From positions 99,572-155,669 of the IMG/VR virus record IMGVR_UViG_3300030102_007626: a stretch of DNA of 56,098 nt. One strand, 5' to 3'. This document shows positions 32,464 through 56,098 of the stretch, piece after piece. Position 1 is the stretch's first letter. Every line of letters begins with the position of its first letter. The position numbers were made by a program, and so were the translations under genes. Source of the stretch: a virus. The notes beneath the pieces were generated by a model, which had not been told where the DNA came from, searched no databases, and was given only the letters and a program-made list of their open reading frames with translations.

Positions 32464-33213
32464 ATGATAAGTCTTGTTCAATTACTAAAAGAGTCTCAAA
32501 AAACCCCTAAAGTTATATTTATGGCTGGGCCTGCAGGAGCAGGTAAAACATATATATTAAATCAGTTAGGATTACAAAATTTTAAGGTAATTAATGTAGA
32601 TGATGTATATGAAAAATTACTTAAAGATACTTTAGGTAAAGAAGATTTTGGCTCTATGTCACCTGAAGAATTATCAACAGCGGGTAAATTAATGGGTAAA
32701 GCTAGGGTTGCTACTAAAGAAAAAGAAGCTCAAGCATTAGAAAATCTTGAAAGCATAATAATTGATGGTACAGGTGCTGCCTCAAGACCCTTACTTAAGA
32801 AAAAACAACAGTTAGAAGATTTAGGATATGATACATTTATGGTTTTAATTTATGTATCTCCTATGGTATCTTTAAAAAGAAATGCTCAAAGAGGTAGAAG
32901 TTTACCTACCTCAGCTGTTTTAGCTAGTTGGGATGGTGTAATGAAAAATATAAATTTATATAAACAAGAATTTGGTAATAATATTACTTTAATAAATAAT
33001 GATCCTGAAAATGCTGATAAGTCTTTTGATCCTAATTCTATTATAAAATTATTCCCACAACCTAAAGGCAAACCTAAAACACCAGAGGAAATGGCTAAAT
33101 CAAAAGCTAAAAAAGAACAAATAAACCAAAATATAAAAGCTCTTTTAAATGCAGAACGTGAATTTGATACTTTAAATGTAGCAAAACAAAAAATTAATGG
33201 ATTCGTTAACTAG
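32464..33213 (+). CDS. P-loop kinase, zeta-toxin-like, with (L/I)xE leader
   Basis: A 249-residue protein. Residues 1-11 (MISLVQLLKES) match the short leader shared by many genes in this cluster. A P-loop follows at GPAGAGKT (22-29). Then come a DDVYEKL segment like the substrate Asp region of zeta-type kinases, IIIDGTG (about 99-105) and RNAQRGRSLP with the sensor Arg residues. Zeta-type kinases phosphorylate small metabolites or nucleotides. The leader suggests it may be packaged in the head and delivered with DNA. It overlaps the next gene by 17 bp. Confidence 0.65.
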   Translation: MISLVQLLKESQKTPKVIFMAGPAGAGKTYILNQLGLQNFKVINVDDVYEKLLKDTLGKEDFGSMSPEELSTAGKLMGKARVATKEKEAQALENLESIIIDGTGAASRPLLKKKQQLEDLGYDTFMVLIYVSPMVSLKRNAQRGRSLPTSAVLASWDGVMKNINLYKQEFGNNITLINNDPENADKSFDPNSIIKLFPQPKGKPKTPEEMAKSKAKKEQINQNIKALLNAEREFDTLNVAKQKINGFVN

Positions 33214-36200
33214 ATCACTTATTAAAGATCTTTTACCTGAAAGTATAGAAGGTAAAGAGGTTACTGCTGTTTTTGGTGGTGGGTTTAAACCTCCTACTGC
33301 AGGCCATTTAGCTGTAATTCAAAATGCCTTAAAAGATAATCCTGAAATAGATAATATTATAATTTATGTTGGGAGTAAAGTAAGAGATGGGATTACACAA
33401 GATCAAGCATATAAAATTTGGAATGAACATTATAAACCTTTAATTGATAAACCAGTTAGAGTAGAAAAATCAGTTTCCCCAATTGGAGATATTTATAGAT
33501 ATGCTAAAGACAACCCTGAAGATTCTATATATTGGATTATAGGAGCAAGAGAAGGTAGAGAAGATGACTTACAAGATATATCAGCTAGATCAGTATCTAT
33601 AAATAAATACCCTAATTTAAATCTAAAAACAATATCTACCCCAGATGGTGGTATGAGTGGTACTAACGCTAGACAGGCATTAATAAATAATGATAAAGAA
33701 GTTTTTAAATTTTTTATACCTATTAATGCTAATCTAGATGAAATTTGGAATATTTTAACTTCAACTCCTTTAAATGAATCTGTTAAAATAGATATGAGTA
33801 AAGTTAACAAAGCTTTATTAAAGGGAATTGGAAAAGAAGATGAAACTGATGAAAATATATTATCCCTTATTGATTCACACCCACAAGGAAAAGTTTCACA
33901 TAAAGTTTTTTTAAATTTTTATGCTAAATTTGATAAATATTTTGGTGAAAAAGATGATAATAGAATTTTAGATGAAATTGGTTTAGAATATCTTCTTACT
34001 CGTGTACTAAATTTATCTCCTGAGGAAATAAGAACAGTAATGAATGATTATCAAAAAGGAAATCGTGATTTAGAAGATATAAGTTGGTTTGAAAAATATG
34101 ATACTGTACATCAAAAAGATGAAGAATGGAATCCTACTAAAGGAGAAAAATTTGATGATACCCAAGATAATGAAGCTGCTGTAAATCGTTATTTATCTAA
34201 AAATAAAAGATTACATGAAGGTGACCCTAAAAAAGGCACAGGTAAAAAACCTAAAGGATCAGGTAGACGTTTGTATACAGATGAAAATCCAAAAGATACT
34301 GTTAAAGTTAAATTTTCTACAAGACAAGATATAATAGATACTTTAAATAAAACTTCATTTAAATCTAAATCACATGCTCGACAATCTCAAATAATTAATT
34401 TAATACATCAAAGAGTAAGAGCTGCCTTAAGTAGAACAAAAGACCCCCAAAAGAAAGCTAAATTACGTTCTGCTTTTGAATATATTAAAAAACGTAAAGA
34501 AGCATCTAAGAAAAAAACTCAACGTTTAAAAAAACAAAAAACTAATGAAGCTATAGATACTAATTTTGATAAAATTAAATTCTATTATGATTATTATACT
34601 AATGTTTCTCCCTCTACTTTTGGAATTACTATAGAAGAAAACGATATTAAAATAAGTAATATTATAGAATCTTATCCTACTAATTTTGGTCCTAAAAATG
34701 TAAGACAAATTCCTGTAAACCCAAATTTAGAAGAAAACATAGACCCAAAAGCTCAAGCTAAACATAAAGGTAAAGCTGCCCCTTTTGGCTCAGCATATAA
34801 ACCTGTTAAAGAAGGTGATACTTATGAAAAAATGGCTGCTAAAGGAAAAAAAGCAGGTAGTTTAAAACAAGGTACAGTTAGAAAAAGGTTAAATATACCT
34901 AAAGATAAAAAAATCCCATTATCACTAATTAATAAAGAATTAGCCCGTTTAAGAAAAATGGATAAAGATAAAAAGAAAAAAGGGGTACAATTAGGAGATA
35001 AAAATCAAAAATATTATAAAGCACTTCAATTAGCTAAAACATTAAAAACTACAACTAATGTAAATGAAACTGGTTTAGAAATAGCTAAAAAAAATATGGA
35101 TGATTATAAAAGATCTAATCAACTAAATGAAAATGCTACATATTCTAATCATATAGACTATAAACAAGAAATTGTAGATTTAACAAAACATATGTTAAAA
35201 AAGGGCATGAATATTAAACCTTTACCTAAAGTAATATTTAAACATAATGATAAAGAAAATGCTCAAGAATTTTTAGGTAGAACTGCTTATTATAATCCTA
35301 ATAGTATGACAATAGTTTTATATACCGAAGGTAGACATCCTAAAGATATAGCTAGATCATTTGCTCATGAAATGATTCATCATATTCAAAAACTAGAAGA
35401 TAGATTAGAAAATATTACTACTACTAATACTCTTGAAGATGATCATTTAAATAATATAGAAAGAGAAGCATATACAAGAGGTAATATGGTCTTTAGAAAC
35501 TATACAGATGGAAAAGATGGAGAAGAAGTTACTAGTTTAAATGAAAATACAGGTGATTCAAACCCACTAAATTTACCACATATTGATACTTGGCATAAGG
35601 GTCAATATAAAGTAGAAGATGGAAATATTAAAGATGGAATCAAATTAATGACCCAAGCAGCAAATGAAGCTAAAAAATTAGCAAGAGAGAAACAAGATGG
35701 GGGAATTGCAGGTGAGGCAAATTATTATAAGGGCACTATTGCGTGGTTAAAAAAAGATTATAATACTGTTAAAAAATATATTAGTGATAAATTTGTTAAA
35801 TTAACAGGTAATGATGAAGTATTAAGTCGCCTTTTAAAAAATAAAGATAAATCTTATAAAGAAGCATATCATTTAAAGGAAGATAATAGTTTAAATGAAA
35901 AAGAAAAACCTTATAAACATAAACATGGATTTGATAAAAATTTAGGTAAAGACCCTTTTGGATTAAACCAGTTTGCTAGAGAATTAGCTAGTTTAGAAGA
36001 AAATGAAGATAATGAAGGTTTTCGTTCTTATAAAAGCATATTTGCTCCTCAAGTTAATATTACAATAGTTTTTAAAGAATATGATAAATATAAAGATTTA
36101 AAATCTTTATTTAAAGAATATGGGTATGGTTTTTATTCACCTAAAACTAAAACTATAATAATAGATGGTGAAGTTTTTATAGACTCTAATTTAACTTTTA

Positions 36201-36418
36201 ATGATTTAAAATTTGTTGAAGCTCATGAAATATCTCATTTAATAATGAACCATTCAGGTCCTCGTTCTGATAAGGATGAATTAGATGCGGATTTAGGAGC
36301 CTATATTTTATTAAAAAGTCAAAATTTACCTGTGGATAACTTAAAAAAACAATTTAAATTTAGACATGGAATAGAATTTAATGAAAAATTACTTGATCGT
36401 GTTAAAGATAAATTTTAA
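33197..36418 (+). CDS. multidomain polyprotein: nucleotidyltransferase plus two metallopeptidase-like domains
   Basis: A 1073-residue protein. Residues 1-15 are a leader-like helix. Residues 21-180 are a nucleotidyltransferase of the NMN/cytidylyltransferase fold, with GGFKPPTAGH (28-37) and MSGTNAR (153-159). Residues 345-445 carry the GTGKKPKGSGRRLYTDENP box and a basic helix; 515-620 a second basic module. A metallopeptidase-like domain has HEMIH (724-728) with a likely third ligand in EREAY; 790-882 look TPR-like; a second has HEISH (1010-1014) and DELDAD, ImmA/IrrE-like. (L/I)xE sites separate modules: LNE 192, LHE 339, LEE 511, LNE 643, LNE 781, LNE 899, LEE 933. I infer processing by the prohead protease. 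Confidence 0.7.
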   Translation: MDSLTRSLIKDLLPESIEGKEVTAVFGGGFKPPTAGHLAVIQNALKDNPEIDNIIIYVGSKVRDGITQDQAYKIWNEHYKPLIDKPVRVEKSVSPIGDIYRYAKDNPEDSIYWIIGAREGREDDLQDISARSVSINKYPNLNLKTISTPDGGMSGTNARQALINNDKEVFKFFIPINANLDEIWNILTSTPLNESVKIDMSKVNKALLKGIGKEDETDENILSLIDSHPQGKVSHKVFLNFYAKFDKYFGEKDDNRILDEIGLEYLLTRVLNLSPEEIRTVMNDYQKGNRDLEDISWFEKYDTVHQKDEEWNPTKGEKFDDTQDNEAAVNRYLSKNKRLHEGDPKKGTGKKPKGSGRRLYTDENPKDTVKVKFSTRQDIIDTLNKTSFKSKSHARQSQIINLIHQRVRAALSRTKDPQKKAKLRSAFEYIKKRKEASKKKTQRLKKQKTNEAIDTNFDKIKFYYDYYTNVSPSTFGITIEENDIKISNIIESYPTNFGPKNVRQIPVNPNLEENIDPKAQAKHKGKAAPFGSAYKPVKEGDTYEKMAAKGKKAGSLKQGTVRKRLNIPKDKKIPLSLINKELARLRKMDKDKKKKGVQLGDKNQKYYKALQLAKTLKTTTNVNETGLEIAKKNMDDYKRSNQLNENATYSNHIDYKQEIVDLTKHMLKKGMNIKPLPKVIFKHNDKENAQEFLGRTAYYNPNSMTIVLYTEGRHPKDIARSFAHEMIHHIQKLEDRLENITTTNTLEDDHLNNIEREAYTRGNMVFRNYTDGKDGEEVTSLNENTGDSNPLNLPHIDTWHKGQYKVEDGNIKDGIKLMTQAANEAKKLAREKQDGGIAGEANYYKGTIAWLKKDYNTVKKYISDKFVKLTGNDEVLSRLLKNKDKSYKEAYHLKEDNSLNEKEKPYKHKHGFDKNLGKDPFGLNQFARELASLEENEDNEGFRSYKSIFAPQVNITIVFKEYDKYKDLKSLFKEYGYGFYSPKTKTIIIDGEVFIDSNLTFNDLKFVEAHEISHLIMNHSGPRSDKDELDADLGAYILLKSQNLPVDNLKKQFKFRHGIEFNEKLLDRVKDKF

Positions 36419-36420
36419 TT

Positions 36421-36966
36421 ATGGCTAATTTATTTGATCTATATAAACTAATTAAAGAAAATGATGTATCTGCGTATACTATCTATTTAGATATGGATGG
36501 TGTAATAGCTGATTTTGATCAACGATTTTTAGATTTATCTGGAATGACCCCAAACGAATATAGAGATAAATATGGTATGAACCAATTTTGGGATTTTATA
36601 GATGAAGAAAATAAAGTCAGATTTTGGGCAGGCATACCTGTAATGCCTGGGGCTAAAAAATTAATAGATTACGTTTCACAATATGATTATGAGATACTAA
36701 CTGCCCCTTCTATTAAAAAACAATCTAGGTTAGGAAAAATGGTATGGTTGCGTAAAATTCATTCTAATTTATTTCCTGATACACCAAAAGTAAATTTTAA
36801 ATTTGCTAAAGAAAAACATCAAGTAAAACCAACTCTTACTAAAACAGATATTCTTATAGATGATAGAGCAAGTACTATAGATACTTGGAATTCTTCTGGT
36901 GGAACAGGAATATTATATACATCAGCAGATGATGCTATTCAACAACTAAAAAAATTAGGATTATAA
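36421..36966 (+). CDS. HAD-type deoxynucleotidase-like protein with leader
   Basis: A 181-residue protein. Residues 1-13 (MANLFDLYKLIKE) are the (L/I)xE leader. The HAD core follows: DMDGVIAD (24-31, nucleophile Asp24), ILTAPS (92-97, motif II), Lys-containing segment RLGKMVWLR, and LIDDRASTIDTW (145-156, motif III). This matches the 5'(3')-deoxyribonucleotidase group, which dephosphorylates nucleoside monophosphates. It could recycle host nucleotides or adjust pools. It shares one base with the next gene (TAATG). The leader suggests delivery with the virion. Confidence 0.75.
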   Translation: MANLFDLYKLIKENDVSAYTIYLDMDGVIADFDQRFLDLSGMTPNEYRDKYGMNQFWDFIDEENKVRFWAGIPVMPGAKKLIDYVSQYDYEILTAPSIKKQSRLGKMVWLRKIHSNLFPDTPKVNFKFAKEKHQVKPTLTKTDILIDDRASTIDTWNSSGGTGILYTSADDAIQQLKKLGL

Positions 36967-37594: not shown

Positions 37595-38374
37595 ATGAAA
37601 GATAACTTTAATTTAAAGAAATTTTTAAAGGAAAATAAAACCATTGAAAATTCAAATCCTTATTTAAAAGAAGAAAAAGAAATATCAAAAAAAGAAGAAA
37701 AATCTCTTAAAAAAATTTCTAAACAATTAAAAAAATCAGTTAAAGCACATGGAGTGCAAGCTAAAACTATTGATAAAGCTTTAAAAGAAGAATCAACAGA
37801 CCTTAAATCTAAAATTCGTGAAATGATTATTAACGAATTAAGTGAAGAAATGGATCCTGAACTAGATTATGAAGGTACAAGTGAAGAAGAAATGTACGGT
37901 GATTATATAGATGATGAAGAATCTTACTACCCACATTTAGAAGAAATGGGAGAGCCTGAAGATGAAGAATCCCCTGAAATGGATGAATATGAAGATTCAT
38001 TATCACAACAAATGGATGCAGATGAATATGAAACATATGCTGATGCTTTTAGTAGCATGCCATTTGAAGAATCTTTAGACGAAGCTAAAGAAGATGAAGA
38101 TGAAATAGAAACTGATGAACCCGAAGACACAGAAGAAGTACCTGAAGAAGAAGAAACTGAAGAAACTGAAGAAACAGAAACTGAAGAAGAACCTAAAACT
38201 GGAGGTGGATTAGAAGATATAGCTGCTGATATGGAAGGTGATGAAGGTGATCTTATGGACCACTTAATATCAGCTTTAAAAGTATCTAAAGGAATGGACA
38301 ACGAAAAACTTACTACTCAAATAGGAAACACCTTAAAATTCTTTGTAGGTGAGTATATTGGAGGAGAAGAATAA
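37595..38374 (+). CDS. very acidic protein, possible prohead core component
   Basis: A 259-residue protein. Residues 1-14 (MKDNFNLKKFLKEN) are the leader type; a Lys-rich helical part follows (40-75), then a long Glu/Asp tract (about 85-200, including EEVPEEEETEETEETETEEE) and a helical end (DHLISALKVSKGMDNEKL). Highly acidic, protease-degraded core proteins are a feature of T4 proheads (gp67/gp68 type), which fits the context, but homology is not claimed. Starts a new unit behind a late-type motif. Confidence 0.6.
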   Translation: MKDNFNLKKFLKENKTIENSNPYLKEEKEISKKEEKSLKKISKQLKKSVKAHGVQAKTIDKALKEESTDLKSKIREMIINELSEEMDPELDYEGTSEEEMYGDYIDDEESYYPHLEEMGEPEDEESPEMDEYEDSLSQQMDADEYETYADAFSSMPFEESLDEAKEDEDEIETDEPEDTEEVPEEEETEETEETETEEEPKTGGGLEDIAADMEGDEGDLMDHLISALKVSKGMDNEKLTTQIGNTLKFFVGEYIGGEE

Positions 38375-38399: not shown

Positions 38400-38570
38400 A
38401 TGAATTTAAATGAAATTATTGAAGCTATTAAAGAACAAGTAGTAGCTTTAGAAGCTGAAAACGAAAAAACAACAAAAGTCTCACGTACACGTGCACGTAG
38501 AGCAGCTAATAAAATTAAAAAATTAGCAGCTGAGTTTAAAAGAACTTCAACTGCTGAAGATAAAGCTTAA
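38400..38570 (+). CDS. small basic protein, histone-like
   Basis: A 56-residue protein starting MNLNEIIEAIKEQ. An in-frame ATG at 38349 overlaps the preceding gene by 26 bp and is less likely. After the (L/I)xE-like N-terminal helix comes a basic helix (KVSRTRARRAANKIKKLAAE) like those of small histone H1-type proteins of bacteria. It could bind packaged DNA. Followed 1 bp later by the next gene. Confidence 0.6.
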   Translation: MNLNEIIEAIKEQVVALEAENEKTTKVSRTRARRAANKIKKLAAEFKRTSTAEDKA

Positions 38571-38571: not shown

Positions 38572-39450
38572 ATGAAGCAATTAACCAATGAAGCGTTCTC
38601 TCCTGAGGAATCCAAAAAAATATATGACAATTTTTTGGCTATAATTGGAACTCGGAGAGATAAATTGGTTAAAGACCATGGCCCTGAAGCCGAAAACGTA
38701 GCATATGCTACAGCTGTTAACCAAGTTAAAAAACAAGCAGAAAAAAAACCTATGGAAAAAGAAATTGAAGAAGGCACTTGTGGGTATGGAATAGATGGTA
38801 AAATAGGGAATAAACCAGCTGGTCCAGATATGTTAGTAATTAGACTTAAAGAAATGGTCAAAGACGCCTTAAAAAAACCATTAAAAGAAAAAATGGATCC
38901 TGTTGGAAAAGAGGATAAAGACATTAATAATGATGGAAAGGTAGATAAAACTGATGATTATTTAATGAATAGAAGAAAAGCTATTGGAAAAGCAATGCAA
39001 AAAGAAGATGTTGATGTAGGCCACACAGACGATGAACCAGGTATGTTAAAAGCAGATTTATATCGTATTGGAAAATATGCTATGGAGCTTTATAAAATGG
39101 TTGATAAGTTTGATGAAATGGATAGTGAAGTAGACTTTCCACATTGGTGGCAATCAAAAATTACTAAGTCAAAAGGTATGTTAGTTTCTGCAAAACATTA
39201 TCTTGATTTTGAAATGAAAGAACCTCAAATTGATGCAATGGTAGATGTCGCGAGTGAGGAAGGAATAATTGATGAAAAACTTAAACCATCTATGGGTGTA
39301 GGAGCATATATAGATGATTTTAAAGATTCTAAAGCACCACAATTTAAAGGTAAATCTAAAAAGAAAAAACAAGAAATGGCTGTAGCAGCTTATTTATCTA
39401 CGAAAGATAAAAAAAAAGTAGCTGAAGCTATATTTAATAAACTTAGATAA
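38572..39450 (+). CDS. virion-type protein with dockerin/EF-hand-like loop
   Basis: A 292-residue protein assembled from boxes seen in many marine T4-like phages. There is an N-terminal helix, then an EF-hand-like calcium loop DINNDGKVDKTD (117-128) followed by DYLMNRRKAIGKAM. Next comes VGHTDDEPGMLKADLYRIGK (about 147-166) with FPHWWQSKITKSKGM, and a final APQFKGKSKKKKQEMAVAAY (264-283). These mosaic boxes suggest a virion-associated, protease-processed protein. Coupled by TAATG to the next gene. The function of each box is not known to me. Confidence 0.65.
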   Translation: MKQLTNEAFSPEESKKIYDNFLAIIGTRRDKLVKDHGPEAENVAYATAVNQVKKQAEKKPMEKEIEEGTCGYGIDGKIGNKPAGPDMLVIRLKEMVKDALKKPLKEKMDPVGKEDKDINNDGKVDKTDDYLMNRRKAIGKAMQKEDVDVGHTDDEPGMLKADLYRIGKYAMELYKMVDKFDEMDSEVDFPHWWQSKITKSKGMLVSAKHYLDFEMKEPQIDAMVDVASEEGIIDEKLKPSMGVGAYIDDFKDSKAPQFKGKSKKKKQEMAVAAYLSTKDKKKVAEAIFNKLR

Positions 39451-39927: not shown

Positions 39928-40653
39928 ATGAAATTAACTATAAAACATATTAATAATACTTTAGGAGTAGATACTATTTTTTTAAATGAAAATAACTATA
40001 CTTCTATAGAAACAATTCAATTAATAAAAGAAGAACAATTATTATATGAAACTTTTTTAAAAACTGTTAAAAGTTTTGCAAAAGAAAAACTTAATAAAGC
40101 TGTTGATACTATAAAAGATTGGAAAGATGCTGCTGTTGTTTTTTCTAAAATTTTATCTAATGGAGAACTTTTAAATGATTTTTTATACCCATTAGAACGT
40201 TTAGTACAAAAACAACTTAAAAAATTATATGACGTACTTGAAAAAATAAAATTAAATTCTATAGTTACAAAAATAAAAGGATTTTTTAAAAAAATAGCAA
40301 GTCTTAAAGGATGGAAAAAATTATTTACTTTAATAGCTTTGGGTGGAGTAGCTTTTTATGCCTCTACAAAACTTCCTTTAGATGGTGTAAAAAAATGGAT
40401 AACAGATACTGTTGGACCTGATTTTATTGAAACTATTACCTCTAAATTAGTAGATTGGAAATCTTATATAGGATTTATAGGTCCTATAGTAGGGGGAGGA
40501 GCTATAATATTTAAACTTTTAGAACCTTTATTAACTAAATTTAAAGAAGCATTAAAAAGTAGTAGTTATTTTGCTACTAAAATAATTAAAGAAAATAAAA
40601 AAAGAATTTTAAAACAGCTTATTCGAGAAGAAATATTTAAAACTTTATCATAA
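39928..40653 (+). CDS. membrane-interacting protein with C-terminal LIREE tag
   Basis: A 241-residue basic, helical protein. Two hydrophobic segments lie at about 130-147 (LFTLIALGGVAFYAS) and 180-199 (YIGFIGPIVGGGAIIFKLL). The C-terminus KENKKRILKQLIREEIFKTL is a match to the leader peptides that other proteins of the cluster carry at the N-terminus, so here the tag seems to be C-terminal. If packaged, it could act on the host membrane during DNA entry; this is inference. Confidence 0.55.
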   Translation: MKLTIKHINNTLGVDTIFLNENNYTSIETIQLIKEEQLLYETFLKTVKSFAKEKLNKAVDTIKDWKDAAVVFSKILSNGELLNDFLYPLERLVQKQLKKLYDVLEKIKLNSIVTKIKGFFKKIASLKGWKKLFTLIALGGVAFYASTKLPLDGVKKWITDTVGPDFIETITSKLVDWKSYIGFIGPIVGGGAIIFKLLEPLLTKFKEALKSSSYFATKIIKENKKRILKQLIREEIFKTLS

Positions 40654-40654: not shown

Positions 40655-41098
40655 ATGGAAAATTTTGATTTAAAAAAGTTTATAACAGAAGGTAGATTAT
40701 ATGAGGCAGCAATGGCTTGTCCTACTGCTACTCAAAACCTTGAATTAAATACCAAAAATAGAGATGCTTCTATCCAAGCAGAATACATTCAATATGGTCC
40801 ATTAAATGTAGATGAACCAGGTGACTATTGGAAAGATATAGCTGAATATTGGAATACAACAGAAGAAGCAGCTAAAAAATCATTATGTGGTAATTGTGTT
40901 GCATTTGATATTTCTCCTAGAATGGATGAATGTATGCCTGGCCAAACATCAGATGAAGATGGGAGATTAGGATATTGTTGGATGCACCATTTTAAATGTC
41001 ATTCTGCAAGAAGTTGTAGAACTTGGGCTAAAGGTGGTCCTATCACAAAAGATAGTGTATCTTATGATTGGCAAGAAAGAAATGCAGACAAAGTATAA
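40655..41098 (+). CDS. cysteine-rich protein with leader, marine-phage family
   Basis: A 147-residue protein. Residues 1-12 (MENFDLKKFITE) are the leader. It has seven Cys (22, 78, 81, 93, 108, 115, 121), and the pattern CGNCVAFD, GYCWMHHFKCHSARSC is conserved in proteins I recall from cyanophages and other marine T4-like phages. The spacing suits a metal or iron-sulfur site, but no cofactor is proven. It overlaps the next start by one base. Confidence 0.65.
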   Translation: MENFDLKKFITEGRLYEAAMACPTATQNLELNTKNRDASIQAEYIQYGPLNVDEPGDYWKDIAEYWNTTEEAAKKSLCGNCVAFDISPRMDECMPGQTSDEDGRLGYCWMHHFKCHSARSCRTWAKGGPITKDSVSYDWQERNADKV

Positions 41099-42606: not shown

Positions 42607-43287
42607 ATGTCACGATTAACAAATTTAATAAAAGAAGTATTATCTACTAAACCAAAAGAAAAGGAAGGTTGTGATTGTGGATGTGGAGGATGTAGTAAAC
42701 CAACTTTTAAAGGTGTAATGCTAAATGAAAGTAAAGCTCCTAAACAAATACTATCGGAAAATCTGCAATATCACGTGCAAAATAAATTACCACTAACCGA
42801 AAACACATTCCGTTATGGTTCCGAATCTTTCCTTAATTTATGGCAAGAAGCACGTTATTTATATTTACGTGAAATTATTCATGTAAATGATGATGATAAA
42901 GAAATTTTAGAAGAAACTGATTTAGGTAACTATGGAATGTATGAAGGTAAAAAAGTACCTTTAGGTTTACCTATGGAAAATATAGTTAATGAAGCAGCTA
43001 AAACAAAAAAGAAAAAAGACCCACCAATTGGTAAACCAAAACGTGGTGGACCTAAGGCATATTATGTTTATGTTAGAGACCCTAAAACCAAACGTATTAA
43101 AAAAGTTACATTTGGTTCTGGTGGACTAAAAGCAAAAATTAATAACCCTAAAGCAAGACGAGCTTTTTCAAAAAGACACAATTGCCCTAATAAAAAAGAT
43201 AGAACAAAAGCATCATATTGGTCTTGTAGACTACCTCGCTATGCTAAATTGTTAGGTTTAAAATCATCCTTTAGTGGATTTTGGTAA
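42607..43287 (+). CDS. leader-bearing protein with Cys cluster and basic marine-phage domain
   Basis: A 226-residue protein. Residues 1-12 (MSRLTNLIKEVL) are the leader. A Cys cluster CDCGCGGC (22-29) and (L/I)xE sites LNE 39, LSE 49 and LTE 63 follow. The C-terminal domain (from about 140: KPKRGGPKAYYVYVRDP, KKVTFGSGGLKAKI, FSKRHNCPNKKDRTKASYWS) is a basic module I recall in many marine T4-like phages and presume to be virion-associated. The layout suggests removal of the N-terminal part by the prohead protease. Confidence 0.65.
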   Translation: MSRLTNLIKEVLSTKPKEKEGCDCGCGGCSKPTFKGVMLNESKAPKQILSENLQYHVQNKLPLTENTFRYGSESFLNLWQEARYLYLREIIHVNDDDKEILEETDLGNYGMYEGKKVPLGLPMENIVNEAAKTKKKKDPPIGKPKRGGPKAYYVYVRDPKTKRIKKVTFGSGGLKAKINNPKARRAFSKRHNCPNKKDRTKASYWSCRLPRYAKLLGLKSSFSGFW

Positions 43288-43288: not shown

Positions 43289-43597
43289 ATGGAAAGATTA
43301 AAATTAAAACAACTTATTAAAGAAGAAGTTTATAAAGTATTAAATGAAGGAATATTTTCAAAAAAAGAATATCCTCTTTATACAATAGAAGATTCTAATG
43401 ACAGTTTTTTTAGATATGTTAAGAATAAACATGGGCTTGAAACTAATATAAATTATATTACAATAAACCCTCTTTCTTATGATAGTTTTACAGATCGTAA
43501 AAAATTAAAAGGGTATTATTCTATTCATACTAAAAAAGGAGTAAATGTTTATAAAATTCCTTCTGAATTTAAAGAATATGCCCATAAAGAAATGTAA
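43289..43597 (+). CDS. small leader-bearing protein
   Basis: A 102-residue protein. The start at 43289 (MERLKLKQLIKEEVYKVLNE) is preferred to an in-frame ATG at 43274, because it restores the leader and avoids overlap. The rest is a small beta-prone domain (YPLYTIEDSNDSFFRYV, LKGYYSIHTKKGVNVYK). The leader ends with LNE at residue 17-19, a candidate cleavage site. It is followed directly by another gene with nearly the same first residues. Confidence 0.65.
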   Translation: MERLKLKQLIKEEVYKVLNEGIFSKKEYPLYTIEDSNDSFFRYVKNKHGLETNINYITINPLSYDSFTDRKKLKGYYSIHTKKGVNVYKIPSEFKEYAHKEM

Positions 43598-44032
43598 ATG
43601 GAAAGATTAAAAAAAATAATTAAAGAAGTTCTTACTGAAAAGAAGAAAAAACGAGACCGATGTTTACGTATTGCTGATCGTAAATTTGACAAACCCTCTG
43701 CCTACAAATCAGGTGCTGTAGTTAGATGTAGAAAAGGTAAAATTTGGAAAGGTATAAAAGAAGAACAAATACACGAAATTATTAAAGAATCTTTACGTGA
43801 TTGGTTTAAAAAAGAAAAATGGGTACGTATTAACACCTCAGGTAATATAACTGGACCTTGTGGTACAATGAAAAAAGGTAAAGCTACAACCCGTTGTTTA
43901 CCTAAAGCCAAAGCTCAATCTTTAACTAAAGCTGAAAGAAAATCTACTGTAGCTAAAAAAGTTAGAGGAGGTAAAAAAGGTAAACAGTTTGTAAAAAATA
44001 CTAAAAAAGCTCAATATAAAAAAAAGTCTTGA
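43598..44032 (+). CDS. small very basic protein with leader, probable DNA-associated virion protein
   Basis: A 144-residue protein with pI clearly basic. The leader MERLKKIIKEVLTE is followed by a Cys/Arg/Lys-rich domain (DRCLRIADRKFDK), a second leader-like segment (EIIKESLRDWFKKEKW) and a basic tail (RGGKKGKQFVKNTKKA). The WFKKEKWVRI-type box is one I remember from marine phages. It could bind packaged DNA. The stop TGA overlaps the TTG start of the next gene. Confidence 0.65.
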   Translation: MERLKKIIKEVLTEKKKKRDRCLRIADRKFDKPSAYKSGAVVRCRKGKIWKGIKEEQIHEIIKESLRDWFKKEKWVRINTSGNITGPCGTMKKGKATTRCLPKAKAQSLTKAERKSTVAKKVRGGKKGKQFVKNTKKAQYKKKS

Positions 44033-46489: not shown

Positions 46490-47221
46490 ATGAAAAATTT
46501 AAAACAAATAATTAAAGAAGAAATTAAACGTATCTTAAGTGAAGATATTGAAGAGGCATACCAGCTATTTAATTTAAACCCTAAACAACCTGAAATAGAC
46601 CCGGATAGGGGAGAAAGGGACCCACAAGATAGTTATATTTATTTAAAACCAAGTACTGAAAAATTACTTAAAAGAAACCAACATATAAGAGTTTTAAGAA
46701 AACCTGAAACACCTGATGTAATTTCTGGGGTTGCTATCCGTTCTACTTTATTAGAACCCCAAAACATGAAAAGATTACCTTATGATATTAATCCAATGTT
46801 TAAAAGATTTTTAAGTACTGCTAATAATATTGGAGGGAAAATAACTTTACCTACAAGAGATACAGGTCCTGAGGATTATACAATTCTTAATAATGTTAAT
46901 ATTGGTAGAGAAGGAAGACTTTCATTTTTTGTCCCAAATCCTAAAAAAAAATTAAATGAACATGGAGCAGGAAGAACTCCTGCAATTAGAGGTATGGTAA
47001 ATATGTTATTTAAAGATGAAAGAATGACTGATGCTCCTTTAGCATTAGTTAAAGCATTAAATCTTTTAGATGATAAAACAGCTCAAGAACTTAATTTTAA
47101 AGTAGCAGAATATCTAAAACCTACTTTTAGTTCAGACCCTAACTCTCCTTCAAACACTGCTGCTATTAAAGCAATGATTGATATGGATAAAGAAAAAGGT
47201 AGAAGACCTAGTTTAGACTAA
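46490..47221 (+). CDS. leader-bearing internal-cluster protein
   Basis: A 243-residue protein. Residues 1-19 (MKNLKQIIKEEIKRILSED) are the best match to the consensus leader, with IKE and LSE sites. The rest is alpha/beta, without recognisable motifs; a Pro/Asp/Arg-rich stretch (PEIDPDRGERDPQD) follows the leader, and a potential LNE site sits at KKKLNEHGAG. It ends before a strong terminator at 47274, closing the transcription unit. Confidence 0.6.
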   Translation: MKNLKQIIKEEIKRILSEDIEEAYQLFNLNPKQPEIDPDRGERDPQDSYIYLKPSTEKLLKRNQHIRVLRKPETPDVISGVAIRSTLLEPQNMKRLPYDINPMFKRFLSTANNIGGKITLPTRDTGPEDYTILNNVNIGREGRLSFFVPNPKKKLNEHGAGRTPAIRGMVNMLFKDERMTDAPLALVKALNLLDDKTAQELNFKVAEYLKPTFSSDPNSPSNTAAIKAMIDMDKEKGRRPSLD

Positions 47222-49186: not shown

Positions 49187-49987
49187 ATGAAAAAGACTCG
49201 TTTACTTGAAATTATTAGAGAAGAAATTGCTGATGCATTAAATGAAATCCCTTTTATAGGACCTAAAAGTCAATATGATTTAGCATATGATAAAGAAACA
49301 GGTGAAGTTCAAAAAAATATTTTAGGAAGTGCTATAAAAAATGCTGTTGATGTAATTAAGGGTATGGGAGTTGAATCTACCCCAGAAATAGCTAAAATAA
49401 TAGTTGGTAAAAAAGCTAGAACTAGTCCTAATTCTCCCCCTGAACTTGTTTCAGCTTTAGTTGCTGTAGATGATGCTGTAGCAAAACAAAGAGACACTTT
49501 TGATGAACCTAAAATTCTTCAAATAGTTAGTAAAATGGCTAATGAACCAAAATCTGGAATCCCCGATATGGGCAAATACATTTCAGGTGAAAAAACTTTT
49601 GCAGATAAATTACAATTCCCCCAAACAGAAAAAGCTGTAGATAGAATTTTAAATCCAAAAGCTCCAAAACCCCCAAAACCAACACCAACTGGATCAGGTA
49701 AAAGAGGACGCCCTGCAGGAAGTACTAAAACAGCTACTCGTACAACAGGAGATGATGGGTTTGATGATGTAAGTTATTCTGATACAAGTGATGAAGGACC
49801 ATCTTCTGCTGATATTTCAAGTGATGAAACAGCTAAATCTTTAGGAGCTAAAGCAGAAAGAATGGCACAAGTTCAAAAATTCACAGCTAAGATGAAAGAT
49901 GAAGGTGTTGTAGGAGATGATAATAAAATATTAGATGCTAAAAAATATAAAGAAGAATTTGCTAAATTTAAAGCAAAATTAAAATAA
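49187..49987 (+). CDS. leader-bearing protein with AT-hook
   Basis: A 266-residue protein. The leader MKKTRLLEIIREEIADALNE carries IRE and LNE sites. An alpha-helical domain follows (about 25-155), then a Pro/Lys linker, an AT-hook KRGRPAGSTK (172-181), an acidic linker (DDGFDDVSYSDTSDEG) and a helical Lys-rich end. The AT-hook suggests contact with AT-rich DNA, fitting a packaged DNA-binding protein. It has no known family. Confidence 0.65.
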   Translation: MKKTRLLEIIREEIADALNEIPFIGPKSQYDLAYDKETGEVQKNILGSAIKNAVDVIKGMGVESTPEIAKIIVGKKARTSPNSPPELVSALVAVDDAVAKQRDTFDEPKILQIVSKMANEPKSGIPDMGKYISGEKTFADKLQFPQTEKAVDRILNPKAPKPPKPTPTGSGKRGRPAGSTKTATRTTGDDGFDDVSYSDTSDEGPSSADISSDETAKSLGAKAERMAQVQKFTAKMKDEGVVGDDNKILDAKKYKEEFAKFKAKLK

Positions 49988-50706: not shown

Positions 50707-50707
50707 T

Positions 50708-52291
50708 ATGAGCCAAGACCTTAAAAAGAAAATACGAGAAGAATATGTAAGATGTGCTGCATCCCCTGCATATTTTATGCGTAAATATTGTTATATACAA
50801 CATCCAAAACGAGGTCGAATCCAATTTAATTTATATCCATTTCAAGATAAAGTATTAACTTTATTTCAAGAAAACCCATATTCAATTGTTTTAAAATCTA
50901 GACAGTTAGGTATATCTACTTTAACAGCGGGTTATTCTTTATGGATGATGTTATTTCATCAAGATAAAAATATACTTTGTATAGCAACAAAACAAGAAAC
51001 AGCTAAAAACATGGTTACTAAGGTTAAGTTTATGTATGATAACTTACCTACATGGCTTAAAGAAAAACAAAAACCATCTGAAGACAATAAACTAACCCTT
51101 AGATTAAATAATGGTTCTCAAATAAAAGCAACATCAGCAAGTTCTGATGCTGGCCGATCAGAAGCAGTTTCTTTATTAATAATTGATGAAGCTGCCTTTA
51201 TTAATAATATAGGTGAAATATGGGCCTCAGCACAACAAACATTAGCAACAGGTGGTGGTTGTATTGCACTATCTACTCCTTATGGTACTGGAAATTGGTT
51301 TCATAAAACATGGGTTGCGGCTGAAATGGGGGATAATAGTTTTTTACCTATACGTTTACCTTGGGAAGTACATCCTGAACGAGATCAAAATTGGAGAGAT
51401 CAACAAGATGCTGATTTAGGAGCAAGAATGGCAGCACAAGAATGTGACTGTGATTTTTCAACTTCTGGTGATACTGTTTTTTATCCTGAAAATATAGATT
51501 ATTATGAAAAAGAATGTATTAAAGAACCATTAGAAAAACGTGGATTAGATAAAAATTTATGGATATGGGAACCGGCAGATTATTCAAGAGATTATTTAGT
51601 TGTAGCTGATGTTGCTCGTGGAGATGGAAAAGATAATTCTACACTTCATGTATTTGATGTTGAAACTTTTACTCAAGTTGCTGAATATAAAGGTCAAATG
51701 GGTACAAAAGATTTTGGTAATTTATTAGTTGGTATAGCAACTGAATATAATAATGCTTTACTTGCACCTGAAAATTCAAGCATAGGATGGTCAACTATTC
51801 AAACTATCCTTGATAGAGGTTATCAAAATTTGTATCATTCACCTAAAGGTAATAGTATGTCTGTAGATAATTATTTTGATCCTTATATGGATTATAGTAA
51901 AATGACACCTGGTTTTACAATGGCTTCAAATACTAGACCAATAGCAATTGGTAAATTTCAAGAAGCTGTACGAGATAAAGGAGTTACATTTCGATCTGTG
52001 CGACTATTAGAAGAAATGAAAGTATTTATATGGAGAAATGGTAGAGCTGAAGCCCAAACAGGGTATAATGATGATTTAGTTATGGCATTTTCTATAGGCT
52101 GTTATTTAAGAGAAACAGCATTTAAATTAAGACAACAAGGAATGGATATGACTAAAAGTATGTTAAATAATGTTAGTAATAATACCTCAAAATATTCGGG
52201 TGGTTATTCAAGCAATGGTACTTTTAAAAATCCCTACAAAATAAATAACCCTTATTCAAACGGCGAAGAAGATATTTCTTGGCTATTATAA
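50708..52291 (+). CDS. terminase large subunit, gp17-like
   Basis: A 527-residue packaging motor and nuclease. The ATPase domain has the Walker A-like SRQLGIST (64-71) and Walker B LLIIDEAAF (156-164, Asp160-Glu161), with the coupling motif ALSTPYGTGN after it. The nuclease domain has VVADVARGDGKDNST (Asp301), LLAPENSSIG (Glu355) and YNDDLVMAF (Asp455/456). It cuts and pumps DNA into proheads through the portal. The portal gene follows 10 bp later; the small subunit is not recognised in this window. Confidence 0.93.
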   Translation: MSQDLKKKIREEYVRCAASPAYFMRKYCYIQHPKRGRIQFNLYPFQDKVLTLFQENPYSIVLKSRQLGISTLTAGYSLWMMLFHQDKNILCIATKQETAKNMVTKVKFMYDNLPTWLKEKQKPSEDNKLTLRLNNGSQIKATSASSDAGRSEAVSLLIIDEAAFINNIGEIWASAQQTLATGGGCIALSTPYGTGNWFHKTWVAAEMGDNSFLPIRLPWEVHPERDQNWRDQQDADLGARMAAQECDCDFSTSGDTVFYPENIDYYEKECIKEPLEKRGLDKNLWIWEPADYSRDYLVVADVARGDGKDNSTLHVFDVETFTQVAEYKGQMGTKDFGNLLVGIATEYNNALLAPENSSIGWSTIQTILDRGYQNLYHSPKGNSMSVDNYFDPYMDYSKMTPGFTMASNTRPIAIGKFQEAVRDKGVTFRSVRLLEEMKVFIWRNGRAEAQTGYNDDLVMAFSIGCYLRETAFKLRQQGMDMTKSMLNNVSNNTSKYSGGYSSNGTFKNPYKINNPYSNGEEDISWLL

Positions 52292-52301
52292 AAAATAAAA
52301 A

Positions 52302-54209
52302 ATGGCAGATACTGGATTATTTGGAAGATTAAGAAGATTATTTTCAACTGATGTAATTATTAGAAATGATGGAGAAGATCAATTAAAAGTAATTGATATA
52401 AATAAAATTCAAGTTTCAGGTGAATATGAAACTAATGCTTTAGTAGATAGATTTAATAGAATTTATACTAATGCTAACACATCAATTTATGGATACCAGA
52501 GTAGTTATAACTACTTAATGCTAAGACCTCAATTATATTCTGAATATGATGCAATGGATACAGATGCAATTATAGCTTCTGCTTTAGATATTATTTCTGA
52601 TGAATGTACTTTAAAAAATGATATGGGAGAAGTACTTCAAATTAAAAGCTCTGATGAAGATGTGCAAAAAATATTATATAATTTATTTTATGATATATTA
52701 AATATAGAATTTAATTTATGGCCTTGGATTAGAAACATGTGTAAATATGGGGATTTCTTTTTAAAACTAGAAATTTCTGAAAAATTTGGTGTTTATAATG
52801 TTATACCATACAATGCATTTCATATAGAAAGACAAGATGGTTTCAACCCAGATAGACCAGCTGATGTAAGATATAGATTTGATCCAGATGGTATTAATCA
52901 ATCATATGGACAATACTCAGTTCCTAATTCTAGTTATCAAACTAATGACAATGATAAAGCTATTTATTTTGATAATTATGAAGTAGCACATTTTAGATTA
53001 CTTTCAGATACTAATTTTTTACCTTATGGTAGGTCATATCTAGAACCAGGACGTAAACTATTTAAACAATATACAATGATGGAAGACGCTATGTTAATTC
53101 ATAGAATTGTTCGTGCTCCTGAAAAACGTATTTATTATATAAATGTTGGAAATATTGCACCTGCTGAAGTTGAAAACTTTATGCAAAAAACAATATCAAA
53201 AATGAAACGTACTCCTTATATTGATCAAGAAACAGGAGATTATAACTTAAAATATAATATGCAAAACCTGCTAGAGGATTATTATATTCCTGTAAGAGGT
53301 AATGATCAAGCAACCAAAATAGATAATTTAGGTGGATTACAATATGATGGAATTCAAGATGTAGAATATTTAAGAGATAAATTATTTGCTGCTCTTAAAG
53401 TACCTAAAGCATTTATGGGTTATGAAAAGGATTTAACTGGTAAAGCTACACTAGCAGCTGAAGATATTAGATTTGCTCGTACAATTGAACGTATACAAAG
53501 AATCATAGTTTCAGAACTTACTAAAATTGCATTAGTTCATTTATATGCACAAGGTTATAAAGATGATGCTTTAGTAAATTTTGAACTTTCATTAACTAAT
53601 CCTTCTGTAATTTATGACCAAGAAAGAGTAACATTAATGAAAGAAAAAGTTGATTTAGCTAATCAAATTTTAGATAATAAATTAATGCCTACTGATTTTG
53701 TGTATGAACATATATTCCATTTAAGTGAAGATGATTATAGTGAATATAGAGATTTAATTGCTCAAGATGCTAAACGTAAATTCCGTATTAATCAAATTGA
53801 AAATGAAGGTAATGATCCACTTGAAACAGGTAAATCATATGGTACACCCCATGATTTAGCTTCATTATATGGTAGAAATAGATATGATAATGGAGAAGTA
53901 CCTGAGGGATATGATGAAGATAAAGAACCATTAGGTAGACCAAAAGAAAAAGTATCTAATAAAAATACACAAGATAATGCTCTTGGTAAAGATAGAATAG
54001 GAGCAATTGGAATGAAAACGGATAATGATGCATCTGATTCAATAAAACCCAACTATAAAGGTGGTTCCCCTTTAGCACTTGAAACAAAAAATAAACGAAA
54101 TAAAAATAAAAAAATGTTTAATGATTTAAAAAATCAGAAAAAACAGATGATTTTTGAAAAAGAAATTAAAGGAAGTTCTTTATTAGATGAAAATCAAATA
54201 AAACAATAA
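52302..54209 (+). CDS. portal vertex protein, gp20-like
   Basis: A 635-residue protein. LMLRPQLYSEYDAMDTDAII (about residues 67-86) with SALDIISDECTLKN, and later EDAMLIHRIVRAPEKRIYYI (about 261-280), are the classical gp20 boxes. It forms the dodecameric ring through which DNA enters. The C-terminal tail is charged and longer than in T4 gp20 (about 524 residues) and ends in acidic and Lys-rich low complexity. It directly follows terminase, as in T4. Confidence 0.92.
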   Translation: MADTGLFGRLRRLFSTDVIIRNDGEDQLKVIDINKIQVSGEYETNALVDRFNRIYTNANTSIYGYQSSYNYLMLRPQLYSEYDAMDTDAIIASALDIISDECTLKNDMGEVLQIKSSDEDVQKILYNLFYDILNIEFNLWPWIRNMCKYGDFFLKLEISEKFGVYNVIPYNAFHIERQDGFNPDRPADVRYRFDPDGINQSYGQYSVPNSSYQTNDNDKAIYFDNYEVAHFRLLSDTNFLPYGRSYLEPGRKLFKQYTMMEDAMLIHRIVRAPEKRIYYINVGNIAPAEVENFMQKTISKMKRTPYIDQETGDYNLKYNMQNLLEDYYIPVRGNDQATKIDNLGGLQYDGIQDVEYLRDKLFAALKVPKAFMGYEKDLTGKATLAAEDIRFARTIERIQRIIVSELTKIALVHLYAQGYKDDALVNFELSLTNPSVIYDQERVTLMKEKVDLANQILDNKLMPTDFVYEHIFHLSEDDYSEYRDLIAQDAKRKFRINQIENEGNDPLETGKSYGTPHDLASLYGRNRYDNGEVPEGYDEDKEPLGRPKEKVSNKNTQDNALGKDRIGAIGMKTDNDASDSIKPNYKGGSPLALETKNKRNKNKKMFNDLKNQKKQMIFEKEIKGSSLLDENQIKQ

Positions 54210-54219
54210 TAAATTTTTA

Positions 54220-54230
54220 TATATTTATAA
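54220..54230 (+). promoter_or_regulatory. TATATTTATAA motif (candidate late element)
   Basis: Exact TATATTTATAA, 19 bp before the start at 54250. Confidence 0.55.
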
Positions 54231-54249
54231 CTAAACAAACTTATTAAGA

Positions 54250-55104
54250 ATGCAAGTTAAACATTCAAAGTACAAAAATACTGGTATACTATTTGAATTA
54301 TTAGTACGCCAAATTACTACTGATACTTTAGAAAATAAAACTTCACCTGCTAAAGATATATTACAAAAATATTTTGTAAAATCTGAGTTGGGAAGAGAGT
54401 ATAAATTGTATGAATCTCTTTTAAAAAGAACTTCATTAACTGAAGCTAAAGCTTCTATTACAATTTCTACTTTAATTGAATCATCAAAATCTTTAAATAG
54501 GGGAGCTATTAAAAGACAAAAGTATAATCTTATTAATGAAATAAAAAAACATTATGATTTAACTCATTTTTTTAATCATAAACTCCCTAACTATAAACCT
54601 TTTGCTGCATTTTATACTTTATTAGAATTAAACAATTCTACCGTTTCAAACCCAGAACAACTAATCCAAAATAAAATTACTATTTTAGAACATTTAACTG
54701 TTGCTTCTATTAAAGAAAGTAAGGTTAGAGATGAAGTAATGGAAGAAGTAAATAAATCTGATAAAGATACTAAATTACTTACTTATAAGATTTTAATGGA
54801 AAAATTTAATGGTAAATATGATAATTTAGCAAAAAAACAAAAATTAATTCTTAAAGAGTATATTAATTCAATTGATAATGCTCCTCGTTTAAAAAAGTTT
54901 TATACAGATAAAATACATGAAATTAAAACAGAATTAATAGGTTTAAATAAAAATACTAAAAATAAAGTTACTAAAATAAAAATTGCTGAGGTTGTTTCTT
55001 TAATTAAAGTTCCATCAAAAAATTACAAACTTAAAGATAAAGATTTAGTTGATTTACTACAATATTGTGATTTAGTAGATGAATTAGAAACAGCTAATGG
55101 ATAG
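54250..55104 (+). CDS. helical head-cluster protein of unknown function
   Basis: A 284-residue, Lys-rich, mostly helical protein starting MQVKHSKYKNTGILFELL. It sits between portal and the next head genes, where T4 carries prohead-core genes 67/68. No motif is recognised and it has no leader. It overlaps the next gene by 8 bp. I recall similar proteins after the portal in marine T4-like phages. Confidence 0.65.
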   Translation: MQVKHSKYKNTGILFELLVRQITTDTLENKTSPAKDILQKYFVKSELGREYKLYESLLKRTSLTEAKASITISTLIESSKSLNRGAIKRQKYNLINEIKKHYDLTHFFNHKLPNYKPFAAFYTLLELNNSTVSNPEQLIQNKITILEHLTVASIKESKVRDEVMEEVNKSDKDTKLLTYKILMEKFNGKYDNLAKKQKLILKEYINSIDNAPRLKKFYTDKIHEIKTELIGLNKNTKNKVTKIKIAEVVSLIKVPSKNYKLKDKDLVDLLQYCDLVDELETANG

Positions 55105-55546
55105 AATTAAAGAAATAGTAAGAAAAAAATTAAAAGAGTTATCCGCTACTAACCAAGGTGGTGCTTCTTTTACCCCAGGACAAGGGGCTAACTATGCTAC
55201 TCCAACAGCTTTTAATAAAAATAAAAAAGCTAAAGGAGCTAAAAATATTTATTATTATAAATTAGGATTTAAGCCTGTACCTAAAATTAAGCCTAAATCT
55301 TATGATATAAAAAAATTATTTGAAGAAGAAAAGTTAAACGAAATGAATGATTTTCAAAAACGTCGTTTAGCTGGGTTAGATGAAATTGAGAGATTAATGA
55401 ATGAAATAACACCATTAGTTTCTAATGCAAAAAATGATACAATTGAATTATATGGTGGAAACGCTGGTTCATATGATATCACACAACCAATAGAAATAGT
55501 ATTAAACTATTTAAAAGAAATAAAAGAACTGTTAACAGAAAAATAA
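55097..55546 (+). CDS. leader-bearing head-cluster protein
   Basis: A 149-residue protein. The N-terminus MDRIKEIVRKKLKELSATN resembles the leaders. It continues with a Gly-rich segment (GGASFTPGQGANYATPTAF), the box KAKGAKNIYYYKLGFK (about 43-58) and a helical C-terminus ending YLKEIKELLTEK. These boxes are known to me from post-portal genes of marine T4-like phages. Probably a prohead or internal protein. Confidence 0.65.
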   Translation: MDRIKEIVRKKLKELSATNQGGASFTPGQGANYATPTAFNKNKKAKGAKNIYYYKLGFKPVPKIKPKSYDIKKLFEEEKLNEMNDFQKRRLAGLDEIERLMNEITPLVSNAKNDTIELYGGNAGSYDITQPIEIVLNYLKEIKELLTEK

Positions 55547-56098
55547 ATGAAAAAGACATTACAAGACCAGTATTTGTTAATTAAAGAAGGTAAAGGACAT
55601 AAAGATATCTTTATTAAGGAAGCTAAACGACAGTTTCCTGGTTTAATTCGTAACGCTGCTACATATACAGAAGTAGCAAATGTACTTAAAACTAAAAATC
55701 TTATTAATGAAAACGTTGTTGGTTTAGAACCAATTAACCAATTACAACCTTCTAAAAAAGAATCATTTGAAGTAGCATTTGAAAATTTTTTAGCTGAAGC
55801 AAAGAAAGAACATTTTGATGATGAAAAAGCTGAACTTAAAAAAACTTCAAAACAAGTAGAAGAAGATGCTGAAAAGAATTTTGACTATGAGGATAAGAAA
55901 AATCCTGATAATTTAATTTTTGATCAAATCATGAAAGGATACTACACTGAAATGAAGGATCCTAAAAATGAAAGTAAAACAATGGAACAATTAAAAGCCA
56001 TTGTAATTAAAAATCTTGAAAAAAATCCTACATATTACACTGAAAAAGGTCAGTTTGGTGTAAAAGATTTAGGATATACAATGGATGCACCTGGTTTA
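55547..56098 (+). CDS. head-cluster protein, 3' end outside the window
   Basis: An open frame starts at ATG 55547, directly after the previous stop, and runs 184 codons without a stop to the window edge, so it is partial. It begins MKKTLQDQYLLIKEGKGHKD, which contains an IKE site, and includes FLAEAKKEHFDD and the box KGYYTEMKDPKNESKTMEQL, followed by YTEKGQFGVKDLGY. These segments recur in marine T4-like phages near capsid genes. Probably a prohead-core or scaffold-type protein. Confidence 0.65.
   Translation, partial: MKKTLQDQYLLIKEGKGHKDIFIKEAKRQFPGLIRNAATYTEVANVLKTKNLINENVVGLEPINQLQPSKKESFEVAFENFLAEAKKEHFDDEKAELKKTSKQVEEDAEKNFDYEDKKNPDNLIFDQIMKGYYTEMKDPKNESKTMEQLKAIVIKNLEKNPTYYTEKGQFGVKDLGYTMDAPGL

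Follow-up and report, generated by a model that had tools for sequence, protein, structure and literature searches.

Capsid-targeting sequences are already known from bacteriophage T4 (Mullaney and Black, cited in PMC10052503). There, head-packed proteins such as the internal proteins and Alt begin with a short leader that ends in (L/I)xE, a site which the S77 protease gp21 recognises, and gp23, gp24 and gp21 itself have sites of the same style. Here we describe a family of such leaders on proteins encoded within and around a 56,098-nucleotide stretch of viral DNA (the window), which is the terminal 56 kb (positions 99572-155669) of the 155,669-base virus record IMGVR_UViG_3300030102_007626. 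As in T4, an S77 protease and a gp23-type capsid protein with a similar site are found together with (L/I)xE leaders on several proteins. The system differs from that of T4 in that about 18 diverse proteins are tagged, the leaders fall into three classes that are swapped between protein bodies, one class copies the tail of the scaffold, and polyproteins hold internal sites.

Three further systems are close enough for comparison. In SPN3US and other phiKZ-type phages, head and ejection proteins are reported to lose N-terminal propeptides of 20-254 residues to the prohead protease (PMC10052503, PMC7411985). The propeptides in those reports are mostly long and end in an AxE motif, whereas the leaders here are short, end in LxE and stand on unrelated proteins; AxE was not found as the motif of the leaders and junctions described here, in which P3 is mostly L, I or V. 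Polyvalent proteins, as outlined in PMC5512222, are multidomain, predicted to be packaged and injected, and include zincin metallopeptidases. The product of window gene 33197 is similar in combining unrelated domains, among them two HExxH modules and an NMNAT-like domain, and in adjoining head genes, its domain matches being weak and below Pfam cut-offs. Polyvalent proteins are proposed to be processed by their own zincin, whereas the 33197 product has leader-like (L/I)xE junctions. Finally, T4-like cyanophages, which are S77-type phages, are reported to carry NMNAT or cytidylyltransferase, kinase and SAM hydrolase in the virion (PMC10665884, PMC9602691, PMC9146016). These enzymes are similar in kind to those tagged here and have T4-style leaders, although the present phage has more leaders, mainly class A and B of another style. 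Our literature search, which missed most subscription journals, found nothing that links capsid targeting to the cargo of cyanophages or of far-T4 phages, uncultivated examples of which were described by Roux et al. (PMC4360716). As far as can be told, the novelty lies in the scale, in three classes that can be swapped, in the copied scaffold tail and in polyprotein junctions that track with the protease.

Leader classes, conservation and exchange

A first-pass annotation of the window had proposed a single family of short (L/I)xE leaders. Every N-terminus that it listed is real and present at its coordinate, each with an (L/I)xE-like site in the first ~20 residues, and the set is enriched over shuffled and control sequences. 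One consensus for all was rejected; three classes fit. Of the listed members, 17167, 38400 and perhaps 55097 are doubtful. With genes named by window position unless record positions are given, class A (consensus LxxLIKEExxxxL(N/S/T)E) comprises 42607, 43289, 43598, 46490, 49187, 55097 and 17167. Class B (F(D/N)L(K/R)K(F/Y)(L/I)xE, plus a shorter LxxLLKE) is in the style of the T4 internal proteins and comprises 32464, 36421, 37595 and 40655, which read FxLKKFLxE or LxxLLKE. Class C (RMQKLAGIxxE) is a copy of the C-terminal tail of the scaffold. Looser fits are 33197 (MDSLTRSLIKDLLPE), 38400 (weak) and 55547 (YLLIKE). The C-terminal tag claimed for the 39928 product is also there, the protein ending in RILKQLIREEIFKTLS. 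T4 head proteins show the same style (gp24 MAKINELLRES, gp21 QLLIET, gp23 FLTEAE, gp67 DLIKEEKIAIARNFLIE), and the amphipathic LIKEE helix of class A resembles a stretch of T4 gp67. The motif search of the complete genome that had been proposed finds credible short leaders with a final (L/I/V/F)xE at the N-termini of about 18 proteins; seven of these proteins are encoded outside the window (record positions 21826, 62728, 63995, 64744, 65331, 67470 and 88726). In Flavobacterium phage immuto the number is about 15, and many of the tagged genes are syntenic; its candidate cargo includes NT5C (immuto26A_184), the DUF5872 protein (187), 188, 191, 194 and 195 and pieces of 183 and 192. Enzymes had been read in the tagged set, and domain matches point to a zeta-toxin/P-loop kinase-like protein, NT5C and, from a weak PF01467 match, the NMNAT-like 33197 product (E values in Table 1).

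A regular expression for the hydrophobic pattern plus E matched 19 of the 196 N-termini of this genome, whereas shuffled N-termini gave 7.5 ± 2.7. The class A profile (score threshold of at least 14; seeds from this phage and immuto, none from the loci of relatives) matched 9 of 200 N-termini in this genome, where internal stretches predict 0.3, and 83 of 818 in loci of 80 relatives, where 1.7 are expected; there were no matches among 240 N-termini of three control Bacteroidetes phages (Flavobacterium phages 6H and FCL-2 and the crAss-like phi14:2). A T4-style expression applied to the first 25 residues gave 12 matches here (1.9 expected), 67 in relatives (9.4) and four in controls (1.6). When all 128 proteins of at least 120 aa were ranked by their excess of site-like motifs, 42607, 64744, the 55547 product, the scaffold and 33197 came top, all five within a set of 19 head or tagged proteins (chance 4e-5, the set having been named by the analyst).

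The leader behaves as a unit separate from the protein that follows. In 28 relatives of the 49187 product, mean column conservation is 0.77 in residues 1-20 and 0.31 beyond. L18 and E20 are each 93% conserved and residues 15, 16 and 19 are free; as the family was chosen on residues 1-14, L18 and E20 are free of selection bias. At identical residues 27% of codon comparisons differ synonymously, so that the conserved thing is the peptide. An effect at the level of DNA or translation start is disfavoured by these synonymous differences and by the lack of class A leaders in control phages of related hosts. Orthologues keep the leader in 21 of 23 distinct N-termini for the kinase, 27 of 27 for the cysteine-rich protein, 27 of 28 for the acidic protein and 42 of 50 for the DUF5872 protein, and about half of the NMNAT and NT5C families match the leader expression. 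Among untagged neighbours, no orthologue N-terminus has it in the portal (0/59), 54250 (0/24), primase (0/10) or exonuclease (0/16) families. The terminase is the chief false-positive family (31 of 83 match), and for the 48629 NTPase the looser pattern fires also on leaderless N-termini.

Leaders are exchanged between bodies, which gives indirect support to the idea that a leader would suffice to target a foreign protein. DUF5872 proteins have class A in most relatives and class B in L076 (MDNFDLRKYLAESKLDASLSEE, predicted cut before SKKRDRC), homologues of the acidic 37595 product have class B or class C (class C in L137), and in one more family class A or class C precedes bodies that are 68-69% identical. 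The same leader also stands on different bodies inside one genome (record 62728, 63995 and 64744 here; three genes in L059). A count of A-to-D class swaps was an artefact of overlapping class definitions and was superseded by the later swap analysis; the 85 tagged body clusters are likewise a rough guide, single-linkage clustering having fused families through shared modules. A scan of 412,597 residues gave 25 copies of the class C core, 20 of them at the extreme C-terminus of a protein, three as leaders and two internal. By alignment, the C-terminal copies in this phage, immuto and Mel-JY01 are scaffold proteins, and those in other genomes are probably scaffold, judged by position and ending, with L086 a possible exception. 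Further class C leaders lie beyond these 25, for example in L120 and L137.

Polyprotein junctions and cyanophage virions

The first-pass reading of 33197 as a nucleotidyltransferase and peptidase polyprotein is borne out, with an NMNAT-like domain, a basic module and two HExxH metallopeptidase-like modules joined at (L/I)xE junctions. The basic module DPKKGTGKKPKGSGRRLYT has 85 distinct occurrences, about 24 of them as bare genes whose products start M(A/K/R)nDPK. Most of the others follow a leader or lie within a longer protein, and 46 of about 59 have (L/I/V/M/F)xE at most two residues from the module start, where the rate at random positions, measured on a different set of cargo proteins, is 6.6%. 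Since the module is bare elsewhere and follows xE here, a cut at the junction would yield a protein like the free-standing one. Among records longer than 50 kb, S77 was found in seven of eight with the xE form of the module and in none of six with the bare or no-xE form (Fisher p 0.005; some records are fragments). NT5C, a tagged gene here, is a polyprotein segment in L154, L170, L175, L176 and L180, and immuto 192 is a single chain joining segments that resemble the 38572 and 39450 products. An AlphaFold model of the 1073-aa polyprotein had a mean predicted local distance difference test score of 43, with some confidence confined to a few short helices and to portions of the nucleotidyltransferase region (about residues 20-190); the junctions, like most of the chain, fall in low-confidence stretches and the model was therefore not used as evidence. 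In another, probably smaller phage (L246:2983-3816), three adjacent stand-alone basic genes are counterparts of the DPK module of 33197 and bear a likeness to parts of the 43598 and 42607 products. A spacer-like cassette, DDPQSGKAAPYGSGY, recurs between LxE sites of unrelated cargo proteins (38572-39450 and 43598-44032 here; L008, L019, L023, L064 and L115), and the 33197 product holds the variant DPKAQAKHKGKAAPFGSAY.

Leader-bearing proteins have been detected in virions of related phages. The S-CREM2 virion proteome (PMC10665884, Table 3) lists a SAM hydrolase, an APH/ChoK-like kinase, a Cas9-like protein, a cytidylyltransferase and hypothetical proteins. In the genome (OR473000) the SAM hydrolase begins MKDFDSFLEE, the kinase (V)KRFDAFLTE, the cytidylyltransferase MKNFSSFLTE, gp13 MKDLHSFLTE and gp136 MQTFSMFFSE, and in the Cas9-like nuclease of the virion list, gp12 (7704-10313), the T4-style site LRFASFMAE lies about 25 residues from the start. 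The pattern M(K/R/Q)x(F/Y/L)xxF(L/I/V/F)xE starts five proteins in the S-CREM2 genome, all five virion-detected and non-structural (p 2e-5). As this pattern was set post hoc, it was then run unchanged on all 1186 open reading frames (ORFs) of S-SCSM1, where the sole match is the NMNAT (MKSFLQFLKE), a protein reported in the virion proteome (PMC9602691). The leaders on these enzymes argue that the enzymes belong in the head; the text of the two virion papers available to us does not mention them.

Two window genes encode proteins that are related to virion-detected proteins of cyanophages. The 38572 product shares a 41-aa module (66% identity, E 2e-13) with S-SCSM1 ORF92, annotated as a virion protein; this EF-hand-like module follows xE in four of five contexts, too few to weigh. 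The DUF5872 product (43598) matches the virion-detected S-CREM2 gp160 (E 2e-6). A C-terminal tag-like end different from that of the 39928 product, RTFKEFLEYIE, occurs in S-SCSM1 ORF93. Homology of 41068 to the virion protein S-SCSM1 ORF90 is not claimed, the E value being 0.001 in a single comparison.

A capsid-targeting model and its alternatives

We consider it likely, with good confidence, that the leaders are T4-style capsid-targeting sequences of a greatly expanded, protease-cleaved cargo system. What is established is its sequence-level part: the leaders with their conservation and end point, swaps between classes, the junctions of the modules and the link between those junctions and S77. 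The earlier proposal of capsid targeting with (L/I)xE cutting draws support from the S77 gene, the E/A sites of the capsid protein, the leader end at LxE, the junctions and the cyanophage proteomes. The prohead protease gene that had been predicted downstream lies directly past the window end (S77 E 5.8e-26; phrog_207 E 1e-48), and the capsid protein has a conserved (V/I)xE-type site followed by A (LVTE/A, IVSE/A, LISE/A, the slash marking cut sites placed by position), with E and A invariant.

In this phage, a leader would bind the tagged protein to the assembling prohead core, a class C leader recruiting its cargo by scaffold mimicry. The gp21-type S77 protease would then cut after (L/I/V/F)xE and free the cargo, which would stay inside the DNA-filled head and presumably leave it for the host together with the DNA. 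Three interchangeable cassettes (A, B and C) would serve the phage, and several cargo modules would be strung in polyproteins via the same kind of cut site. We regard as an even call the broader proposal of modular delivery in far-T4 phages, in which acquiring one of the three cassettes turns a gene into head cargo, class C mimics the scaffold and polyproteins are cut in the head by the prohead protease.

Several observations weigh against the capsid-targeting model. The N-terminus of the terminase and two tail-cluster genes (17167 and record 21826) match class A; a class A helix by itself is therefore no proof of cargo, and the restriction of class A to head proteins was rejected as an absolute rule. 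The S-CREM2 pattern was tightened after the data had been seen, earlier looser tests giving p 0.002-0.003. Most virion-detected S-CREM2 proteins of unknown function have no such leader, which means that the leader is not the sole route into the virion list, and the authors of both cyanophage papers, in the text available, left co-purification open (PMC10665884, PMC9602691). Virion detection comes from cyanophages, the putative cargo of this phage and immuto being read from genes. In SPN3US, about 80% of head proteins are reported to be uncleaved (PMC10052503).

The alternative that survives best, although we think it unlikely, is that the tagged proteins are components of the prohead core or scaffold whose leaders bind the core and which the protease degrades or trims, few being injected as working enzymes. 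Several tagged products (37595, 55547) are acidic or repetitive and, like the scaffold, have many sites, and T4 core proteins have the same site style; the 55547 product is more likely a core protein than cargo, and it and the 37595 product may be core proteins that are degraded and not injected. Against this, kinase, NT5C and NMNAT-like domains are intact behind a single leader, and leader-bearing enzymes have been detected in mature cyanophage virions. Still less probable is a general docking helix for some other phage partner, such as a replication site, chaperonin or tail, with the likeness to LxE being secondary. Similar helices on the terminase and two tail-cluster genes would fit this, as would the phage-encoded GroEL/GroES-like proteins, given that the T4 gp23 N-terminus is reported to direct proteins to GroEL (reference 29 of PMC10052503). 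Docking does not account for the conserved positions being P3 and P1, for polyprotein junctions that need no docking helix and yet have LxE and track with S77, or for class C being the scaffold tail. Coincidence, in which an AT-rich genome and the translation starts of Bacteroidetes would favour K-, I- and E-rich helices at N-termini, is very improbable. The AT-richness of the genome and the lack of a Shine-Dalgarno sequence at most starts would fit it, but the pattern is not reproduced in shuffles, internal windows or control phages, the portal, 54250, primase and exonuclease families score 0, and cyanophages (S-CREM2 near 48% G+C) bear T4-style leaders on virion enzymes.

The capsid-targeting model offers a sequence rule to predict the head-carried proteins of T4-type phages, including the cyanophage virion enzymes for which contamination was left open. 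On this model, common uncultured phages may deliver a sizeable group of nucleotide-related, nicotinamide adenine dinucleotide-related and DNA-binding proteins into the host at the onset of infection. The leaders are candidate cassettes for loading proteins into phage heads, and immuto, a relative cultured on Flavobacterium sp. LMO8, makes the prediction testable.

Genome context

The ends of the virus record overlap by 312 bases at 96.5% identity; the genome is therefore probably complete and circularly permuted, the window end joining the record start. Head genes run across this joint in the order large terminase (50708), portal (52302), 54250, 55097 and the 55547 product, followed at the record start by the S77 prohead protease, an acidic scaffold-like protein and the gp23-type capsid protein (Gp23 E 2.2e-73). 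The nearest isolate is immuto (capsid identity 58.6%), followed by Microcystis phage Mel-JY01 and Rhodothermus phage RM378, and from the relationship to RM378 the phage appears to belong with the far-T4 phages. Table 1 collects the features of the window.

Table 1. Leaders, modules and head genes in the window, by window position
Feature	Position	Strand	Remarks
Class A-like N-terminus, baseplate-cluster gene	17167..17250	+	doubtful member; immuto homologue at same place
Leader MISLVQLLKE (class B-like), zeta-toxin/P-loop kinase-like protein (32464-33213)	32464..32493	+	Pfam Zeta_toxin E 5e-11
Leader MDSLTRSLIKDLLPE, NMNAT-like polyprotein (33197-36418)	33197..33241	+	orthologues begin MNSLVKSLIQPLLE and similar, directly before domain
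Nucleotidyltransferase (NMNAT/cytidylyltransferase-like) module	33254..33766	+	PF01467 E 0.0024, below cut-off; GGGFKPPTAGH motif; immuto homologue annotated NMN adenylyltransferase
Basic module DPKKGTGKKPKGSGRRLYT after RLHE/G	34217..34606	+	internal, leader-tagged and bare forms in other phages
HExxH metallopeptidase-like module (HEMIH) after QLNE/N	35117..35542	+	weak Peptidase_M91/PipA, below cut-off
Second HExxH module, IrrE/M78-like (HEISH), near SLEE/N	36002..36415	+	Peptidase_M78 E 0.001, below cut-off; phrog_87 metallo-protease E 4e-6
Leader MANLFDLYKLIKE, NT5C 5'-deoxyribonucleotidase (36421-36966)	36421..36459	+	NT5C E 1.4e-7; phrog_2643 E 1.4e-27 from residue 18
Leader MKDNFNLKKFLKE (class B), acidic protein (37595-38374)	37595..37633	+	orthologue counts in text
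Small basic protein MNLNEIIEAIKE...	38400..38570	+	leader doubtful; not detected by class tests
EF-hand-like module DPVGKEDKDINNDGKVDKTDDYL after LKE, 38572 product	38896..39024	+	S-SCSM1 ORF92 match
C-terminal class A tail RILKQLIREEIFKTLS, 39928 product	40603..40650	+	class A profile
Leader MENFDLKKFITE (class B), cysteine-rich protein (40655-41098)	40655..40690	+	orthologue counts in text
Leader MSRLTNLIKE (class A), protein with several LxE sites and basic C-terminal domain (phrog_7595)	42607..42636	+	
Leader MERLKLKQLIKEEVYKVLNE (class A)	43289..43348	+	
Leader MERLKKIIKEVLTE (class A), DUF5872 protein (43598-44032)	43598..43639	+	DUF5872 E 2.8e-7
Leader MKNLKQIIKEEIKRILSE (class A)	46490..46543	+	
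Leader MKKTRLLEIIREEIADALNE (class A), fast-changing protein (49187-49987)	49187..49246	+	conserved to E20 in 28 relatives
Large terminase	50708..52291	+	N-terminal helix class A-like (MSQDLKQIIREEY in relatives); not cargo
Portal protein	52302..54209	+	no leader; immuto and T4-type portal in synteny
Class A-like N-terminus MDRIKEIVRKKLKE, gene between portal and protease	55097..55138	+	may be core protein
N-terminus MKKTLQDQYLLIKE, core-like protein spanning record ends up to protease gene	55547..55588	+	

Some features of the genome and its relatives stand apart from the leaders. About 100 related sequences retain, within their cargo cluster, a leaderless FAD (flavin adenine dinucleotide)-dependent oxidoreductase-like gene (window 47334-48623), and a single virus record of 268,739 bases (G010, the record of L195) has two S77 proteases. 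GroES- and GroEL-like genes, read from sequence, lie at record 59679-61560 and are annotated in immuto as well. A run of QueC/QueD/QueE-like genes is likewise read at record 51082-53293; immuto is annotated with QueC, QueD, QueE, FolE and DpdA, and the queuosine-type genes of both phages suggest 7-deazaguanine modification of the DNA. Two tail-sheath-like genes stand in a row at record 17061-21186. At window 2001-6000 the G+C content is only 19-21% with extreme GC skew (0.87 and 0.66), and the region holds a run of small ORFs.

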